Positions 24,494 to 31,389 of a stretch of DNA of 64,000 nt are shown piece after piece. Under the pieces are notes generated by a model. It was not told the origin of the DNA, did not search any database, and saw only the letters and a program-made list of their open reading frames with translations. Source of the stretch: Schizosaccharomyces osmophilus (lineage: Eukaryota; Ascomycota; Schizosaccharomycetes; Schizosaccharomycetales; Schizosaccharomycetaceae); contig NC_079240.1 of NCBI RefSeq assembly GCF_027921745.1, forward strand, positions 923,001-987,000. The letters run 5' to 3'. Positions within the stretch are counted from its first letter, which is position 1. Each line of letters begins with the position of its first letter. The position numbers were made by a program, and so were the translations under genes.

Positions 24494-26421
24494 TTAAAGA
24501 GAGTTGAATAACATCTTTTGTTTAGCAGTAAGGATAATGTCACCTTCGGAAGATTCATCTTGATTTACGGATATAGCATCCTTCGTTGCTAATACCAAAA
24601 CATCAAAAAATAGTTGTACAGCGTCATCACGCTTCGTGTTTCCACTCAATTCTTTAAATGATGCTTGTTCTCCTTGTACGCGGGGGGTCCATTTCGATTG
24701 AACAAAGTCTTTAGCAACTTGCGTACTAGGCATAGAATCAAAAGATGCAGGCTCGTTAAAAGTATTATCAGCATTCCATTCATTATCATCCAACATAACA
24801 GGCGGCGCTCCTATCATAGAATCATCGTCAATATTTGCATCCGCTGGAGGAACTGAAGGGGTTTCAGCTGCTAGTTCTACTTGGCCGTCATTATTCATAT
24901 TAGCTGCATCTAAAGCAGACATTTCAGCAGGACTTTGCTCGGCTTCATGCTCTTCGTATACTTCTGAAGCCTCCTGTTCTCCTGCTAAATTCTGTTCTTG
25001 TTGGGGAGCATCATCAGTTTTTCGGTGTTTAGTTACTTCGTCTTCCTCTTCTTCGATTGTGGGGGACAATTTACGCTTTTTTACATCGTCCTGAAGTTTT
25101 TTTAAAAAGTCCATCTTAAAAATTTCAGCCAAATGAGGATTTAAATTGGAAGAAGATAAAGAAGTTTGAATGTTCCCATTGCGCATGAAATTAACCGTAG
25201 CATTTAGTACCACCGGATTAGTGTTCAAACAAAGCGGTGCTGTGATTGAAGAAGTATCAGACAGTTGCTTTTTCATTTGTCGAGACGACAATTCAGTAAC
25301 TGGATCAATAACAGCACGTTGACGGCGTGGGATGCGAGAAACTGAGGCTTGCTGCTCTGTAATGTCGGGCACATCTTCTTGAACCTCCTCTTGTGGAGAT
25401 GAGGCCTGGTCAAGGTGATCAGAAGGGATTTCAATGTGGGAAACTTCATCGTCATTGGTCTCCTCAACTGGTAGTTGTGCGGGAACTGTAGTATCATTCA
25501 TGAGATCGTCCAAACCGAGATCTAATTGTAAGTCATCGACTGGAGCTAGTAGTTCATTATCCAAAGAATTATTTCCAACAGGAAGTAAGCTTGGGGTCCC
25601 AAAACTTCTAGCAGAAGAGGCAGGTGATTTTCCACCCTGCGACCCAACTAGTGCACTAAGGTCAGCAGCACCAGTAGGATCATGGGGGGCATCTCTTCCT
25701 ACTTCTATGGATTGCTCGCTTCTAGGCGTACCAGCGCCTGACTGAAATATCGGTAACTGAAACTGCATATCCATACTATTAAGTTGCAAAGGATCAGAGA
25801 AAAGGTTAGTCTCATGAGGAGCAGCATTTCGTGCTGCCTCAATTGACTGTTCGCTAGAAACAATAGAAGGAGAAGATGAACTAGGAAGGGTATGTAATTC
25901 AAAAGAGCGAGACTTGGGTGTTTGAATAAGTTGAGACCATTGCATGTCGAAAGAGCTATCTGGGGCCAACAGATCAAACTCGGTAATGGTATCAGGAAGG
26001 GTAAGATTAGCACTTTGAGCCATGGCATCCTTTCCTTTTATTGAGGTAACTGAAGGGGCATTGATTTGTTCAGCTTGCCCAGGACGAAAAGCCATTTTAA
26101 TCCTCAACAGAGCTTCATTGCAATCCTCCAACAGGTATCTAGCTTTCCTTGAATAAATACGAACGACGCCAAGCATAAGCTGTCCAGAAAGGCGCAAAGC
26201 CATCGGCGCTGTTTCTTCCGTGACGATGGCATGTACACTTTGTTCAATGTCGGTATGTAAGGTTTGGACTTTGGAAAGTTTCTTTTCCCAGTGAGCAGCG
26301 AGCCATACTTTTGCTAAGGGGCCCTAAAGACATAAAATAGTTAGTTTTGGGGGAAATTGAACCCATTTACAGAATGTAAACAAAGTACCTTTTTTGAGAG
26401 AATGGCTTCAGAATAGAACAT
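24494..26421 (-). CDS. rad21: cohesin kleisin subunit Rad21 (Scc1)
   Basis: Two exons, 26389-26421 (MFYSEAILSKK) and 24494-26323 (GPLAKVWLAAHWEKKLSKVQ onwards), encode 620 residues. The N-terminal domain that binds Smc3 (residues 1-100) contains the invariant SGQLMLGVVRIYSRKARYLL. The middle is acidic and disordered and holds two separase-type ExxR sites, SIEAAR (Arg about 176) and SIEVGR (Arg about 221), matching the two mapped cleavage sites of S. pombe Rad21 near 179 and 231. The C-terminal winged-helix region (AVQLFFDVLVLATKDAISVN) binds Smc1. Rad21 closes the cohesin ring and is cut at anaphase. Donor gtactt and a ctaac branch point bound the first intron. MCB boxes lie upstream. Confidence 0.97.
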
Positions 26422-27277
26422 GTGACAACTATTACTCAAAGATAGTTAAAAGAGAAAGACAACTAAAAGGAATAACAAAAAAAGGGATATATTTTGGCTT
26501 AATTTTAAGCAGGTCGTATACGGTAGTGGATGCGTTTCATTACGATGGGTCGCTATTAAATTGAAACGCGGTACGCGTAAACATTCGTTGCTGTGTACGC
26601 GACTACGCCGTTACGCGGTCACGAAAAATAAACAAACAATCCAACAAAATATTATAATTACTTTAAGCGTCTTGCATAAAATTAGAAAACAGAGATTACT
26701 TTTTAACACTTGAACCCTCACTACAGAAATGAATAAAACACAAATCATGGTTTAAGTGGGTATCAAGGTTGGTATTGAGCATTGAAAAGCAGAAAACATA
26801 ATATGTTAGTTGCGTATGTTCTGAGCAACAGGGTGTATCTACAAACATTTTTTTTTATTGAGCATGAATTTGCTGTATATTGTTAACCAAGCAGTGATTG
26901 ATGATAATTTTCGTTTCTAGCGAATGTTCTCGTGTCGCAATGTCCTAAAAGCATACCTTTCATATTGAGAGAGCAAAGTATATTTAACAAATTTTTTTCG
27001 TTGCAACTAGTCTAACCAAGCATAAATGAACTTTCAATTTCTGAATGCTATTTAGGGATTGCTTTGTGCTACGGCTCATCTAACCATATATGTTCAAAAC
27101 TCAAGCGGTCCGATAACTTGCTTGAATCCTTTTACATTTCAATAAATACTTGGAGAATTCTCAAAGAACTATGAAATGACTAGGTATTCCTTAACGATGA
27201 CCATTACTTGCAAGAGAAGAAAATTTTTCTATATAAATCAACCATAAGTATAAATATTTTAACATAAACAAAAGCAT
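26422..27277. other. rad21 promoter and 5S 5' flank
   Basis: This holds the MCB-like cluster (listed separately) and the Pol III TATA element before the 5S gene. No open frame of interest was found in between. Confidence 0.5.
26564..26624. promoter_or_regulatory. MCB-like cluster upstream of rad21
   Basis: A perfect ACGCGT (26573-26578) is flanked by related ACGCG units at about 26566 (AAACGCGG), 26599 (TACGCGA) and 26613 (TACGCGG). The cluster is 140-200 bp upstream of the rad21 ATG on the minus strand. MBF-driven G1/S transcription of rad21 is the natural reading and agrees with periodic expression of cohesin genes in S. pombe (inference). Confidence 0.6.
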
Positions 27278-27396
27278 GTCTACGGCCACACCTAGGCGAA
27301 AACACCAGTTCCCGTCCGATCACTGCAGTTAAGCGTCTGAGGGCCTCGTTAGTACTATGGTTGGAGACAACATGGGAATCCGGGGTGCTGTAGGCT
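27278..27396 (+). rRNA. 5S ribosomal RNA
   Basis: 119 nt beginning GTCTACGGCCACACCTAGGC and ending GTAGGCT, nearly identical to S. pombe 5S as I recall it. The internal control region (ACTGCAGTTAAGCGTCTGAG) is intact. A TATAAAT at -29 to -23 (27249-27255) and a T8 terminator at 27402-27409 show a functional Pol III unit. Fission yeasts carry 5S genes dispersed singly through the genome, outside the rDNA arrays. Confidence 0.97.
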
Positions 27397-27722
27397 CTAT
27401 CTTTTTTTTGGCTTTATACTTGTTTAACAGTTTATTCTAAACATCGGTAAGTATTTCTATTGTTTGCAAACGTCTTCAAATTCCATAAATGTGCAACCTC
27501 CTACTATTGCAACGAATGGTTACCTGGGAGGTAACACTGGTGAGTTTTTAGAGAAGATTTAATAAAATAAACAAACCGATCGTATTCAAACGTAAATTAA
27601 ATAAATATATAAAGATTTCTTACAATGAATTCTAGAACAGTACCAAAAATTGGCGATGAGGAAAGAGAGGAAGCCAAATAAAACTAATTTAAATAAATAA
27701 TGAGAGCAATAGGGTTGCTTTG
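27397..27722. other. spacer 5S/membrane-protein gene
   Basis: AT-rich; it contains the Pol III terminator and the 3' flank of the minus-strand membrane-protein gene. No second 5S fragment was seen. Confidence 0.5.
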
Positions 27723-28767
27723 TCAATTTTTCTCTTCCTTAAAAATTACCAGCGAAGAAAAAAATGCATCGTCCTTTTGTTGATGCTTTGGAAGCGTAAG
27801 TGAAATGGTTTCCTCAGTTGAGTATCCAAGGATACAAATAAGACTGTGGTAACACATCCAACACACGACACCGACAGTTTGTCCAAGACCTGTGAAAATG
27901 GACTTTATGCCATTGACAAGAAATTTTGCAAGTAATATTGCGACAAAGTTTGTTAATGTCACAATTGCTACCGCGAGAGTACAATGAGATATAATATCTA
28001 GTTTTGAAAAATCCGAAAAACCTACTAAAACTAACACAACGAAAATCGACGTCAATGTAAGCATCACAATAGAACCAACCGCACAAATAAAAAAGACTGG
28101 TGGATAACATACCTGCACCAGAAATAAAAAATGTTCGGAAACGACCCCAAGACCACCCACAATAAAAATTAGTGCTTTAGCCACGAGCCATGCTACCCAA
28201 ATAATAGGCCGACTGAATACTAGTTTTTGTTAGCAAATGCACGCTTAAGAATTGTTTCGATTAGAAAAAATATTACTTACCGTAAAATACACCGAAAGAA
28301 GTTGCCCATGTTAGAAAGAATTGGCCTAAAGGACAAAAGAAATCCCAAGGATATCCAATTTCGCTAGATACATGTAGTAACCAAGAAAGGAAGTCATAGT
28401 GGTAAAAGGCAGCTAATGAGCACAATAATGATAAAACCGATGTCGAAATGCAGTGAACTGTTCTGTTTTCAACGATTACATTTTTAGGAAAGTGATGTTT
28501 TGTTTCTTTCTTATATTCAGCTAAAAAAGTATAGGCGTTGGCTTTAATCTTGTTCTCTTTTATATCATAATAATCCTTATCCGGAAGCAAAAAACCAAGG
28601 AAAGCTACTACCTTGTTTCGTTTGATTTTTGGAGAACCTGACCCGAATGATTCTTTAATATCCTGCGGTGTATTCAAAGGAAGCCCCTTTTCAAGATCAA
28701 TGTTGAAAGCATGGCCCTCAGGAGGAACACTTGAATCCAAGCTAGGCTTCTCTTCAGACATATTCAT
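27723..28767 (-). CDS. 5S-linked multi-pass membrane protein, possible wtf- or wag-type gene
   Basis: Two exons, 28281-28767 and 27723-28219, give 327 residues; the phase-1 junction (TTTTACG, gtaagt, then aactag) is clean. The N-terminal 110 residues are hydrophilic and cytosol-like, with FNIDLEKGLP (about residues 22-31) and FLLPDKDYYDIKENKIK. About six hydrophobic segments follow, among them HCISTSVLSLLCSLAAFYHY, WVAWLVAKALIFIVGGLGVV and SIVMLTLTSIFVVLVLVGF, then a short polar tail. An IDLEKG motif near the N-terminus is seen in Wtf spore-killer proteins, and octosporus-group wtf and companion genes sit beside 5S genes. Against it: no PPxY/LPxY motifs, and exon 1 is long and unbroken rather than short and antidote-specific. 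A UPF0494-type family is another possibility. A FLEX-like GTAAACAAA (28908-28916) lies 141 bp upstream. It reads as an intact gene. The gene itself is likely; the family is uncertain. Confidence 0.7.
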
Positions 28768-30677
28768 ACAAAATTAATATCAATTGGCAAGAATTAAAGG
28801 CAAGGATGTTGGTTTCAATAAGAAATTTCGCATCACTTACGCAACGTTGAGTCACAAGAGCAAGTAACATCTTGTAACTTGGCTTTTATTTACAGAAACA
28901 GAAAAATGTAAACAAAGCAACTTCTTCAAAAAAATCAAAATGCTCACACCCTGGATTTAACAGTAAGTATAGCGTTTGATTGTTAGTGCTTGTCTAACAC
29001 CGAAACTCGAATATAATTTTGATTTCTTGGGAACTAAAGAGTTAAGGAAAAATTATTATTTATTTGAGAGAATGCAATGAGTCTGCAAAGTTAGTTCTTT
29101 TTCCTTTTAGCTTCTCTTGGAGTTTTTCTCAGTTCCTTTACAACCTATCGACCAGTCTCCCTTTATATTTCTTCCGGCTGTTTTACTTGGCATATACAAA
29201 CTGAAAAGTTTCGAATCCTAGCTAAATAGATGGCTCAGACTGGGAGTACTTTCTCTTTAAACTTTCTTGAACAGAAAACCAATGGTAAAGCATCCTTTGT
29301 TTGTTGTGAGTAGTTTGTTTCCAGTCCCAGATGTCAACAAACAAACGTCTTGAAAAGGTACAAATAGAGGTCGAACTCTCCCTTTTTCAACCAAGCAAGC
29401 ATATCAATCACATGCATCCAAAAGCAATTCTCTCTCAAAGTCGAGAGCTTTGTTTCTTGTAGATGAATTGCGAAAACAGGACCTCGTTTTAGTCTTTTGT
29501 TGACAAAACTCACAAAATGAGCGCTCCTTGGATGTATCACTGCTTTGCTTCGTTAAAAGATGAATAAGCAGAAGGCGTTCCACTCGGTTGCTTTCCCATT
29601 GCTCCAATACCTTTTTCCTCATATATCTTAAAAAATTGTGATGAACGTTTCGATACTCTTCTTGAATTTCATTCTCTTATTCTTTTTTTCAATTAATAAC
29701 CTTTTCTCGTGAACCTTTATGACACAATTTTTGAGTATGATCCCTTTGATTCCCTCCTTTTCTAACATTTCAGCTTTCTCTTTGATTGATTCCCTTTTTT
29801 GATTTTAACTTCTTTCCCTTGTAAACTGGTTTTATCCCCCGTTCTTTTCCTTAAGACTCTTGCTTCTAGCATTTGTTTACATTTCAAAAAGCAAAGCAAC
29901 GCACGAGTAATTGTATCTCGTCTACTATTATTATTTATGTACGTGTTGAACAAGACAACTCAGCAGCGAGCATAAGATTTTAGTATTCGACTATAGATTC
30001 GATTCTGGTGGTTGCTGGCGTTTGTTTACATTCCAAAATGTAATTTGCAGCATTCAAAAGGTCGAGTTCCAACTGCTCCTATTATTCATGTACGTGTTAA
30101 ATTGAACCTTTTTAGCAACGAGCATGAGATAAGAGTATTTGAGAACAGACTCAACGGATGTTTGCGTTCCTGGCATAATCGTTTCTCTCAATAGTGATGT
30201 TGAATCAGTCGACCTTTCGAAGCATTGACTCTGGCCAAGTCAAGCTTTGGGGTTTATGTTCCAAAACCGAATTGAGTTGAAATTGATAATATAGAACAGG
30301 AGTTGCATCTTGGCATGAAATACAATACGCTGATCTCTTAAACCAAGTTGATCCTTTTCTTAAGCATCCAGCGTTGATGATTTATTCAGTAAGGGGACGT
30401 CACAGATAATTCCAAAGGTTTCCTAGGACGAATCGAGTAACTCTTTGTCACTAGTCCGCTTTTCTGGTTGTGTCTGTTTGTTTACTGGAGGAAATCTCAA
30501 TGCTACGTCCTTTGAGCAAAGACAACTTGTTTCCTAACTCAAACTAAACTAAAATTCCTTTTTCAATAAATTTCCCTTTCTTTCTCTACTAGTTTGATAC
30601 GTACAAAAGTAAATTAATTTTTTAAAATAAACCCAAAATGTTTTATATAGGTTTTATTTCACTTGTAATCATACAAA
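28768..30677. other. 1.9-kb gene-poor stretch between the membrane gene and tRNA-Ser
   Basis: Frames here are short and mostly without ATG. A degenerate tandem duplication (29872-30172) and several forkhead-like TGTTTAC sites are the only structures seen. No LTR ends, TIRs or gene fragments could be identified by eye. TATATAG at 30644-30650 belongs to the tRNA-Ser promoter. Confidence 0.5.
29872..30172. repeat. degenerate tandem duplication, period about 149 bp
   Basis: Two diverged copies, 29872-30020 and 30021-30172, each open with TTTGTTTACATT and share, in order, a TATTATT(T/C)ATGTACGTGTT block, GCA(G/A)CGAGCAT(A/G)AGAT, an AGTATT block and a TTGC(T/G)... end. The copies contain indels. 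No coding capacity was found. The origin is unknown. Confidence 0.6.
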
Positions 30678-30759
30678 GACACTATGCCTGAGTGGTTAAA
30701 GGGATAGATTAGAAATCTATTGCGGTCTCCGCGCGCAGGTTCAAATCCTGCTGGTGTCG
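30678..30759 (+). tRNA. tRNA-Ser (anticodon AGA)
   Basis: 82 nt with the long variable arm of serine tRNAs (GGTCTCCGCGCGC region). The acceptor stem GACACTA pairs with TGGTGTC, and the discriminator is G. The anticodon loop is TTAGAAA. Box B GGTTCAAATCC is intact. TATATAG lies at about -34 and a T8 run follows at 30761. No intron. Confidence 0.95.
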
Positions 30760-31389
30760 ATTTTTTTTACTCTTGGTTGCTAACAGCTCTCATAGTTCAT
30801 ATAATATAAAAAAAAAATAGTTCATTGGTATTTTTGGATTCTAATCTCTTGGGAGTCGATTAATGCATTTCTCACGAAATATATCTGATTTTAGTAACTT
30901 CGTACCATTGTGATATTTTGTTAGTTTGAATCTAGCTTATCCGTTAAAAAATAAATTTTGTTTTTGTTATAAAAAACTAAAACACCTAAAGTATGAGACG
31001 AAATTTGCTTACATTTTTGTTGTGTTTTCTTTGTTTACCCTCAAGAATATTTTATTACTAAAGGAACCTCTATACTATAATATAACAAAGAATGTTATGA
31101 TTTCTTTGAACCACAAACCTGAATATTGAACTTGTCTTCTTAGGTGAAAAAGAAGGTAAGGAAAATAAATAATATTACGAAGAAAGCTATTACCTTGAAT
31201 ATTTATTGGTAAAATTTGCCCTTCTTGGTATACTCAAGATTTCTGCGATATTCGCCAAAAAATCTTACATTGTTTGTCCACCTGGTCAAATAGCTTAACG
31301 GTTTAGGTGAATAATCCGGTACAAAGTCTACGGTTCAACATTTTTCCCGTCTTTGGATACGGGTCAATGCTTTCGACGTATTGAAAAAA
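30760..31389. other. bub1 upstream region
   Basis: AT-rich. The frame at 30926-31129 has no ATG start and no recognisable motif. A sequence with a good Pol III box A (TAGCTTAACGG, 31291-31301) and a weak box B (GGTTCAACA, 31332-31340) could be a decayed tRNA or an isolated TFIIIC site. Confidence 0.4.

Follow-up and report, generated by a model that had tools for sequence, protein, structure and literature searches.

In the window analysed here (64,000 nucleotides of Schizosaccharomyces osmophilus, C3:923001-987000, where C1, C2 and C3 denote contigs of one genome), a minus-strand gene beside a 5S rRNA gene belongs, on sequence comparison, to a DUF999-like (PF06198) family of multi-pass membrane proteins. 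We read it as a 5S-hitchhiking membrane protein gene that has spread with the dispersed 5S rRNA genes, is probably meiotic and is neither a wtf nor a wag gene, and we give this reading a probability of roughly 0.6. An earlier note on this DNA, which rightly placed it in the octosporus group, had proposed a wtf-type gene or a known wtf companion (wag), and the comparisons below support neither proposal.

The 327-aa protein is the spliced product of two exons (28767-28281 and 28219-27723), and the 61-nt intron between them has good fission-yeast splicing signals (Table 1). This model gains support from the paralog at C1:1600, which keeps the splice sites and the frame; amino acid identity to the window protein is 93% and 88% for the first and second exon, respectively, and there is no indel in the coding region and several in the flanks. 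The two-exon membrane protein gene described in the earlier note is therefore borne out, as are its N-terminal IDLEKG motif (residues 23-28) and its first exon as an unbroken block without PPxY; the [LP]PxY motif is absent from all 327 residues. The membrane segments claimed there are present and their number, six, is possible: at the same hydropathy threshold, four clear segments were counted in the window copy and six in the C1:1600 paralog. Sequence searches of NCBIfam and PDB gave no match. The neighbouring gene (24494-26203, minus strand) encodes a Rad21/Rec8-type cohesin subunit (PF04825 and PF04824).

Table 1. Features of the gene and its surroundings, in window coordinates
Feature	Coordinates	Strand	Remarks
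5S rRNA gene, left edge of duplicated block	27278..27396	+	Rfam RF00001, 105.6 bits; C1 homology begins at its first base
Spacer from 5S to stop codon, tail-to-tail, 326 bp	27397..27722	.	18/326 sites differ from C1 copy
Exon 2, stop codon included	27723..28219	-
Intron, 61 nt, GTAAGT...TGCTAAC...CTAG	28220..28280	-	Splice sites same in paralog C1:1600
Exon 1	28281..28767	-	162 codons and one base; N-terminal NIDLEKG; first membrane segments; DUF999 match, 25.7 bits
Upstream region alignable with other family members, 204 bp	28768..28971	-	Includes GTAAACAAA at 28908-28916; from alignment of 10 A and B upstream regions
Dispersed element X, ~1.65 kb, upstream of gene	28972..30640	.
tRNA-Ser(AGA), right edge of C2-shared block	30678..30759	+

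DUF999 was the only Pfam family matched by the spliced window protein (24.2 bits against a curated cut-off of 25), so the earlier suggestion to search with UPF0494, which we take to be the UniProt name of DUF999, was apt. In a genome search with PF06198, exon 1 scored 25.7 bits, and one of 14 control genomes also matched, below the cut-off. The Pfam DUF999 scores of the relatives were 30.7 bits for B_5124, 28.7 bits for B_3001 and 14.8 bits for B_2718, and C_3518 had no Pfam match. The subfamilies A, B and C were connected by hhalign (A-B, 98.3% over 254 columns; B-C, 96.7%; A-C, 86.9%), and MS.., DLEKG[LI]P and FPxN[VF] are common to their alignment. Searches with the window protein, PF06198 and one relative yielded 17 family loci in the genome, a count in which the C genes go with their B neighbours and from which the relics C2:1707 and C2:1482 and a weak match at C1:2521 (E 0.0145) are left out. 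Subfamily A contains the window gene, C1:1600, a pseudogene (C2:1062) and a fragment (C1:2070). Subfamily B contains C1:5124, C1:2718, C1:2224, C1:2517, C1:3519, C3:728, C3:1975 and C2:3001, with fragments at C1:984, C1:1095, C2:985, C2:712 and C3:842, while subfamily C consists of C1:2518 and C1:3518, each adjoining a B gene. The resulting tandem arrays of C and B genes, two in number, are nearly identical to each other.

Judged by the listed frames, five of the 17 loci are apparently intact (the window gene and C1:1600 of A; B_5124, B_3001 and B_2718), and twelve are broken or fragments. So much decay would suit a relic, that is, one of two still-open A copies in a mostly dead family, expressed or not and without function, and so would the dN/dS of the two intact A copies, which is moderately below 1 (0.44 to 0.60 depending on the method). 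We nevertheless hold the relic reading to be unlikely, because neither A copy has acquired a frameshift or stop at a coding divergence of 5.6% and with several indels in the flanks, the splice sites are kept, and the 204-bp promoter region carries a single difference.

The kinship with wtf was examined with the multi-exon gene at C1:2222, recognised by IGNxxxG-type heptads, which the accessible text of PMC9562144 describes as the S. osmophilus wtf repeat. This query found 33 wtf-like clusters in the genome, a few of them weak; 42 wtf genes are given for another strain in the same text. The window gene departs from wtf as follows: First, the wtf query matched neither the window gene nor its relatives, and hhalign gave 0.3% for subfamily A against wtf and at most 2.1% for any of A, B and C against wtf or wag. 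Second, in all seven wtf models that we built, exon 1 is short and carries PPPY, and exon 2 has an ATG close to its start (eight regions were tried, one gave no model, and most models stop before the last exon); against a wtf plan of five or six exons and a further start in the second, the window gene comprises two exons, the first of 162 codons. Third, the window protein lacks the PY motif that marks the N-terminal tail of the wtf antidote form, it lacks the IGNxxxG heptads that some wtf genes carry, C1:2222 among them, and the 61-nt intron contains no forkhead core. Fourth, the nearest wtf-like cluster found on the same chromosome is 710 kb away. Membership in wtf was rejected on these grounds, and the remark in the earlier note that this is not a textbook wtf gene was correct. 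Of the two Pfam profiles proposed for a check, UPF0494 gave the marginal DUF999 score, and WTF (PF03303) matches neither the window gene nor an S. osmophilus wtf or its genome; since it misses a wtf of this species as well, we set it aside as a test.

It is thus extremely improbable that the window gene is a wtf-type gene in the sense of a diverged driver, suppressor or antidote-only member of the poison-antidote family, even when the membrane protein, the 5S link and the forkhead site are counted in its favour. The N-terminal IDLEKG, which occurs in S. pombe wtf proteins, also counts for a wtf gene, as does FIDLEMA or FSDLEMA in two of five S. osmophilus wtf models. Eight of the 17 DUF999-like loci lie within 4 kb of a wtf. 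This is about what the 5S link alone predicts, since 59 of 107 5S genes are wtf-associated in S. osmophilus CBS 15792 according to the part of PMC9562144 available to us, and for the same reason 5S adjacency by itself is no evidence of wtf kinship. The sequence NEEIELQ occurs near the C-terminus of two B proteins and one wtf, with partly different codons; as the DNA match between wtf and B is only 13 bases long, it remains a short motif.

The wag genes were identified here by position, at three loci that we read, and by their pairing with wtf; the published position, as worded in the text seen of PMC9562144, is between wtf and its upstream 5S gene. Our wag query found 24 loci, of which 19 are within 4 kb of a wtf-like cluster and the other five are the more diverged ones, and it matched neither the window gene nor its relatives. 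The wag models, too, consist of two exons with an intron that falls mid-protein, and their N-terminal tail bears DLEKG. These features would be expected of a wag gene left without its wtf, but we consider this origin very unlikely, since the window gene is excluded from the 24 loci, the A-wag alignment by hhalign reached 2.1% on an unrelated stretch, and the gene does not lie between a wtf and its upstream 5S. Membership in wag was rejected on the lack of a match to this query and on the hhalign value.

A codon pattern for DLEKG that fits DFEKG as well has 44 matches in the genome versus 10 for the reversed pattern. By position, we assign 13 matches to the DUF999-like family and 14 or 15 to wag; among five other matches that were read, two belong to DUF999-like relics and the remainder seem unrelated. 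DLEKG, common to the tails of DUF999-like and wag proteins, and NEEIELQ are possible short sorting motifs. The wag N-terminus (NKYKKL...) weakly resembles that of wtf (KNKYTPI...; hhalign 30.5% over 71 columns), and on this sequence likeness wag and wtf may be distant relatives.

The link to 5S genes extends over most of the DUF999-like family. At fifteen of the 17 loci, a 5S gene or what is left of one lies less than 500 bp away (197-492 bp), always tail-to-tail: 14 have a 5S gene, two of these diverged to 88%, and C2:3001 has a 48-bp 5S remnant. The two loci without a 5S partner are the fragments C2:712 and C3:842. Because copies carry their own 5S along, the 15 loci do not represent independent events. 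At the window gene, the distance of about 330 bp to a lone 5S gene that had been noted earlier agrees with the 326 bp measured from the stop codon; no other 5S exceeded the Rfam cut-off within the 64-kb window, and Rfam over 26300-31300 returned nothing besides the 5S and one tRNA.

The 5S gene also marks the edge of a duplicated block. Window positions 27278-30619 match C1:1599644-1602979 with 95.9% identity over ~3.35 kb, starting at the first base of the 5S. Differences are spread unevenly over this match, at 55 of 984 coding sites (5.6%) versus 31 of 1813 upstream sites (Fisher p = 5e-8), with 1/204 in the promoter region, 30/1609 in element X and a stretch of 1 kb upstream without any difference. 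This patchwork fits ectopic gene conversion, and it is no mark of coding-specific change because the 3' spacer (Table 1) has diverged as much as the gene. A second block, window 28972-30766, matches C2:983828-985611 with 97.0% identity, and both copies end just past tRNA-Ser(AGA). Pol III genes, 5S on one side and tRNA on the other, are the edges of the copied segment. We infer that 5S genes, and at times a tRNA gene, serve as anchors for the ectopic recombination or gene conversion by which the blocks move. The same route, duplication to pre-existing 5S genes, is argued for the spread of wtf in the accessible part of PMC9562144.

Element X is present in five copies with 92.5-97.6% pairwise identity and in one truncated copy, and all six adjoin a DUF999-like gene or fragment. 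Much of 29210-30580 is near-invariant among the five copies, and three TTTGTTTAC sites are identical across them. The element contains no conserved reading frame: the longest frame, of 72 aa, is partly kept (63 aa) in one of the four other copies, and one of 33 alignment gaps has a length divisible by three. In X, Mmi1-type DSR hexamers showed no clear excess (3 and 2 by strand versus 1.4 and 1.6 expected). An exact FLEX sequence, GTAAACAAACA, lies inside X at 30475-30485 on the minus strand.

Upstream of the window gene, the sole forkhead core within 420 bp is GTAAACAAA, 141 bp from the ATG. The FLEX-like site of the earlier note is found there as GTAAACAAAGC (28908-28918), which shares 9 of 11 letters with FLEX as given in the text seen of PMC9562144 and is not the exact 11-mer. 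In the 64-kb window GTAAACAAA occurs ten times, five of them in 28908-31030. The ten A and B upstream regions align in part and contain a CGTAAGYGATGCGAAATTTCTT-like box, and nine of these ten genes have a forkhead core inside the aligned 300 bp, the core of B_3001 being only at -400, outside the alignment. GTAAACA, a motif held by ~10% of the window's 250-bp stretches, is found in the 420 bp preceding every one of the 12 A, B and C genes examined. The single wag examined has a forkhead core too, at -43. The middle-meiotic genes raised in cuf2-delta in S. pombe are reported to include nine DUF999 and 15 wtf genes, and the rise of the DUF999 gene SPBC1348.01 was confirmed by RNase protection (PMC3338643, in the portion available); the Meu5-target table of PMC7712723, as far as accessible, includes six DUF999 genes. 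Given the forkhead cores of the family and the reports of S. pombe DUF999 genes as middle-meiotic, meiotic expression of the window gene is likely. Mei4 would switch the gene on in mid-meiosis, as for its S. pombe relatives, and the protein would act in the endomembrane or forespore-membrane system at sporulation.

The PY motifs that are absent from the window protein are found within its own family. The intact proteins B_5124 and B_3001 have PPAY, LPLY and LPSY, where A aligns with PP-gap-E, LPLN and LPKH. Rsp5/NEDD4 ligases are brought to wtf proteins by PY motifs, on which both the sorting from Golgi to endosome and the harmlessness of these proteins depend (PMC10721834, from the text available). 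By analogy, B_5124 and B_3001 would be sorted to the endosome and vacuole through Rsp5/NEDD4 ubiquitin ligases, and the window protein, without PY at the aligned places, would stay at earlier membranes. This contrast between A and B, the forkhead cores upstream and a spread with 5S genes like that of wtf could all be taken for a new killer-type meiotic family with antidote-like PY-bearing and poison-like PY-less members. We regard such a family as highly improbable: gene conversion accounts for the divergence pattern, given that the 3' spacer, although non-coding, has diverged as much as the coding region, and PY counts are uneven (two in B_2718, one in B_2224x and none in C). Its fullest form, an independent 5S-hitchhiking killer family in which PY-bearing proteins would be ubiquitinated and harmless or protective, and PY-less ones such as the window protein would be retained in the Golgi and harm unprotected spores, is more doubtful still, and a killer function of the window gene is unsupported. 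A 5S neighbour alone should not signal meiotic drive, because a DUF999-like family in which no sequence kinship with wtf or wag was detected uses the same 5S vehicles. One genome with PY-bearing and PY-less members of one presumed meiotic membrane protein family offers a compact natural test.

As a 5S-hitchhiking DUF999-like gene, the window gene can be set beside four known systems. With the S. pombe DUF999 genes, a subtelomeric family of ten, it has the Pfam family in common through a marginal profile score and transitive similarity; it differs in having one intron and in scoring just under the Pfam cut-off. The S. pombe genes are subtelomeric (PMC6048312, in the text seen), whereas their S. 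osmophilus relatives are dispersed on chromosome arms beside 5S genes, the window gene being 0.95 Mb into a 2.34-Mb contig. The gene descriptions seen in PMC7712723 label DUF999 as S. pombe specific, and our literature search, within the text available to it, found no description of DUF999 outside S. pombe. The present loci indicate relatives outside that species, and with its carriage by 5S genes this modestly known family occupies an unusual niche.

The wag genes (PMC9562144) are alike in their 5S neighbour, two exons and N-terminal DLEKG; they differ in lying between the upstream 5S and wtf, and similarity to the window gene was undetected beyond the motif. The wtf spore killers are alike in a forkhead-type element, 5S-linked spread and homogenisation, and a membrane protein product, but no common sequence, exon plan, PY motif, repeats or dual start were detected in the window gene. 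The FSARs, repeats linked to 5S genes in S. octosporus and S. cryophilus, are likewise anchored in 5S genes and, unlike the window locus, are centromeric; part of the S. octosporus oFSAR-2 resembles 'a family of membrane proteins', a family left unnamed in the accessible text of PMC6538654.
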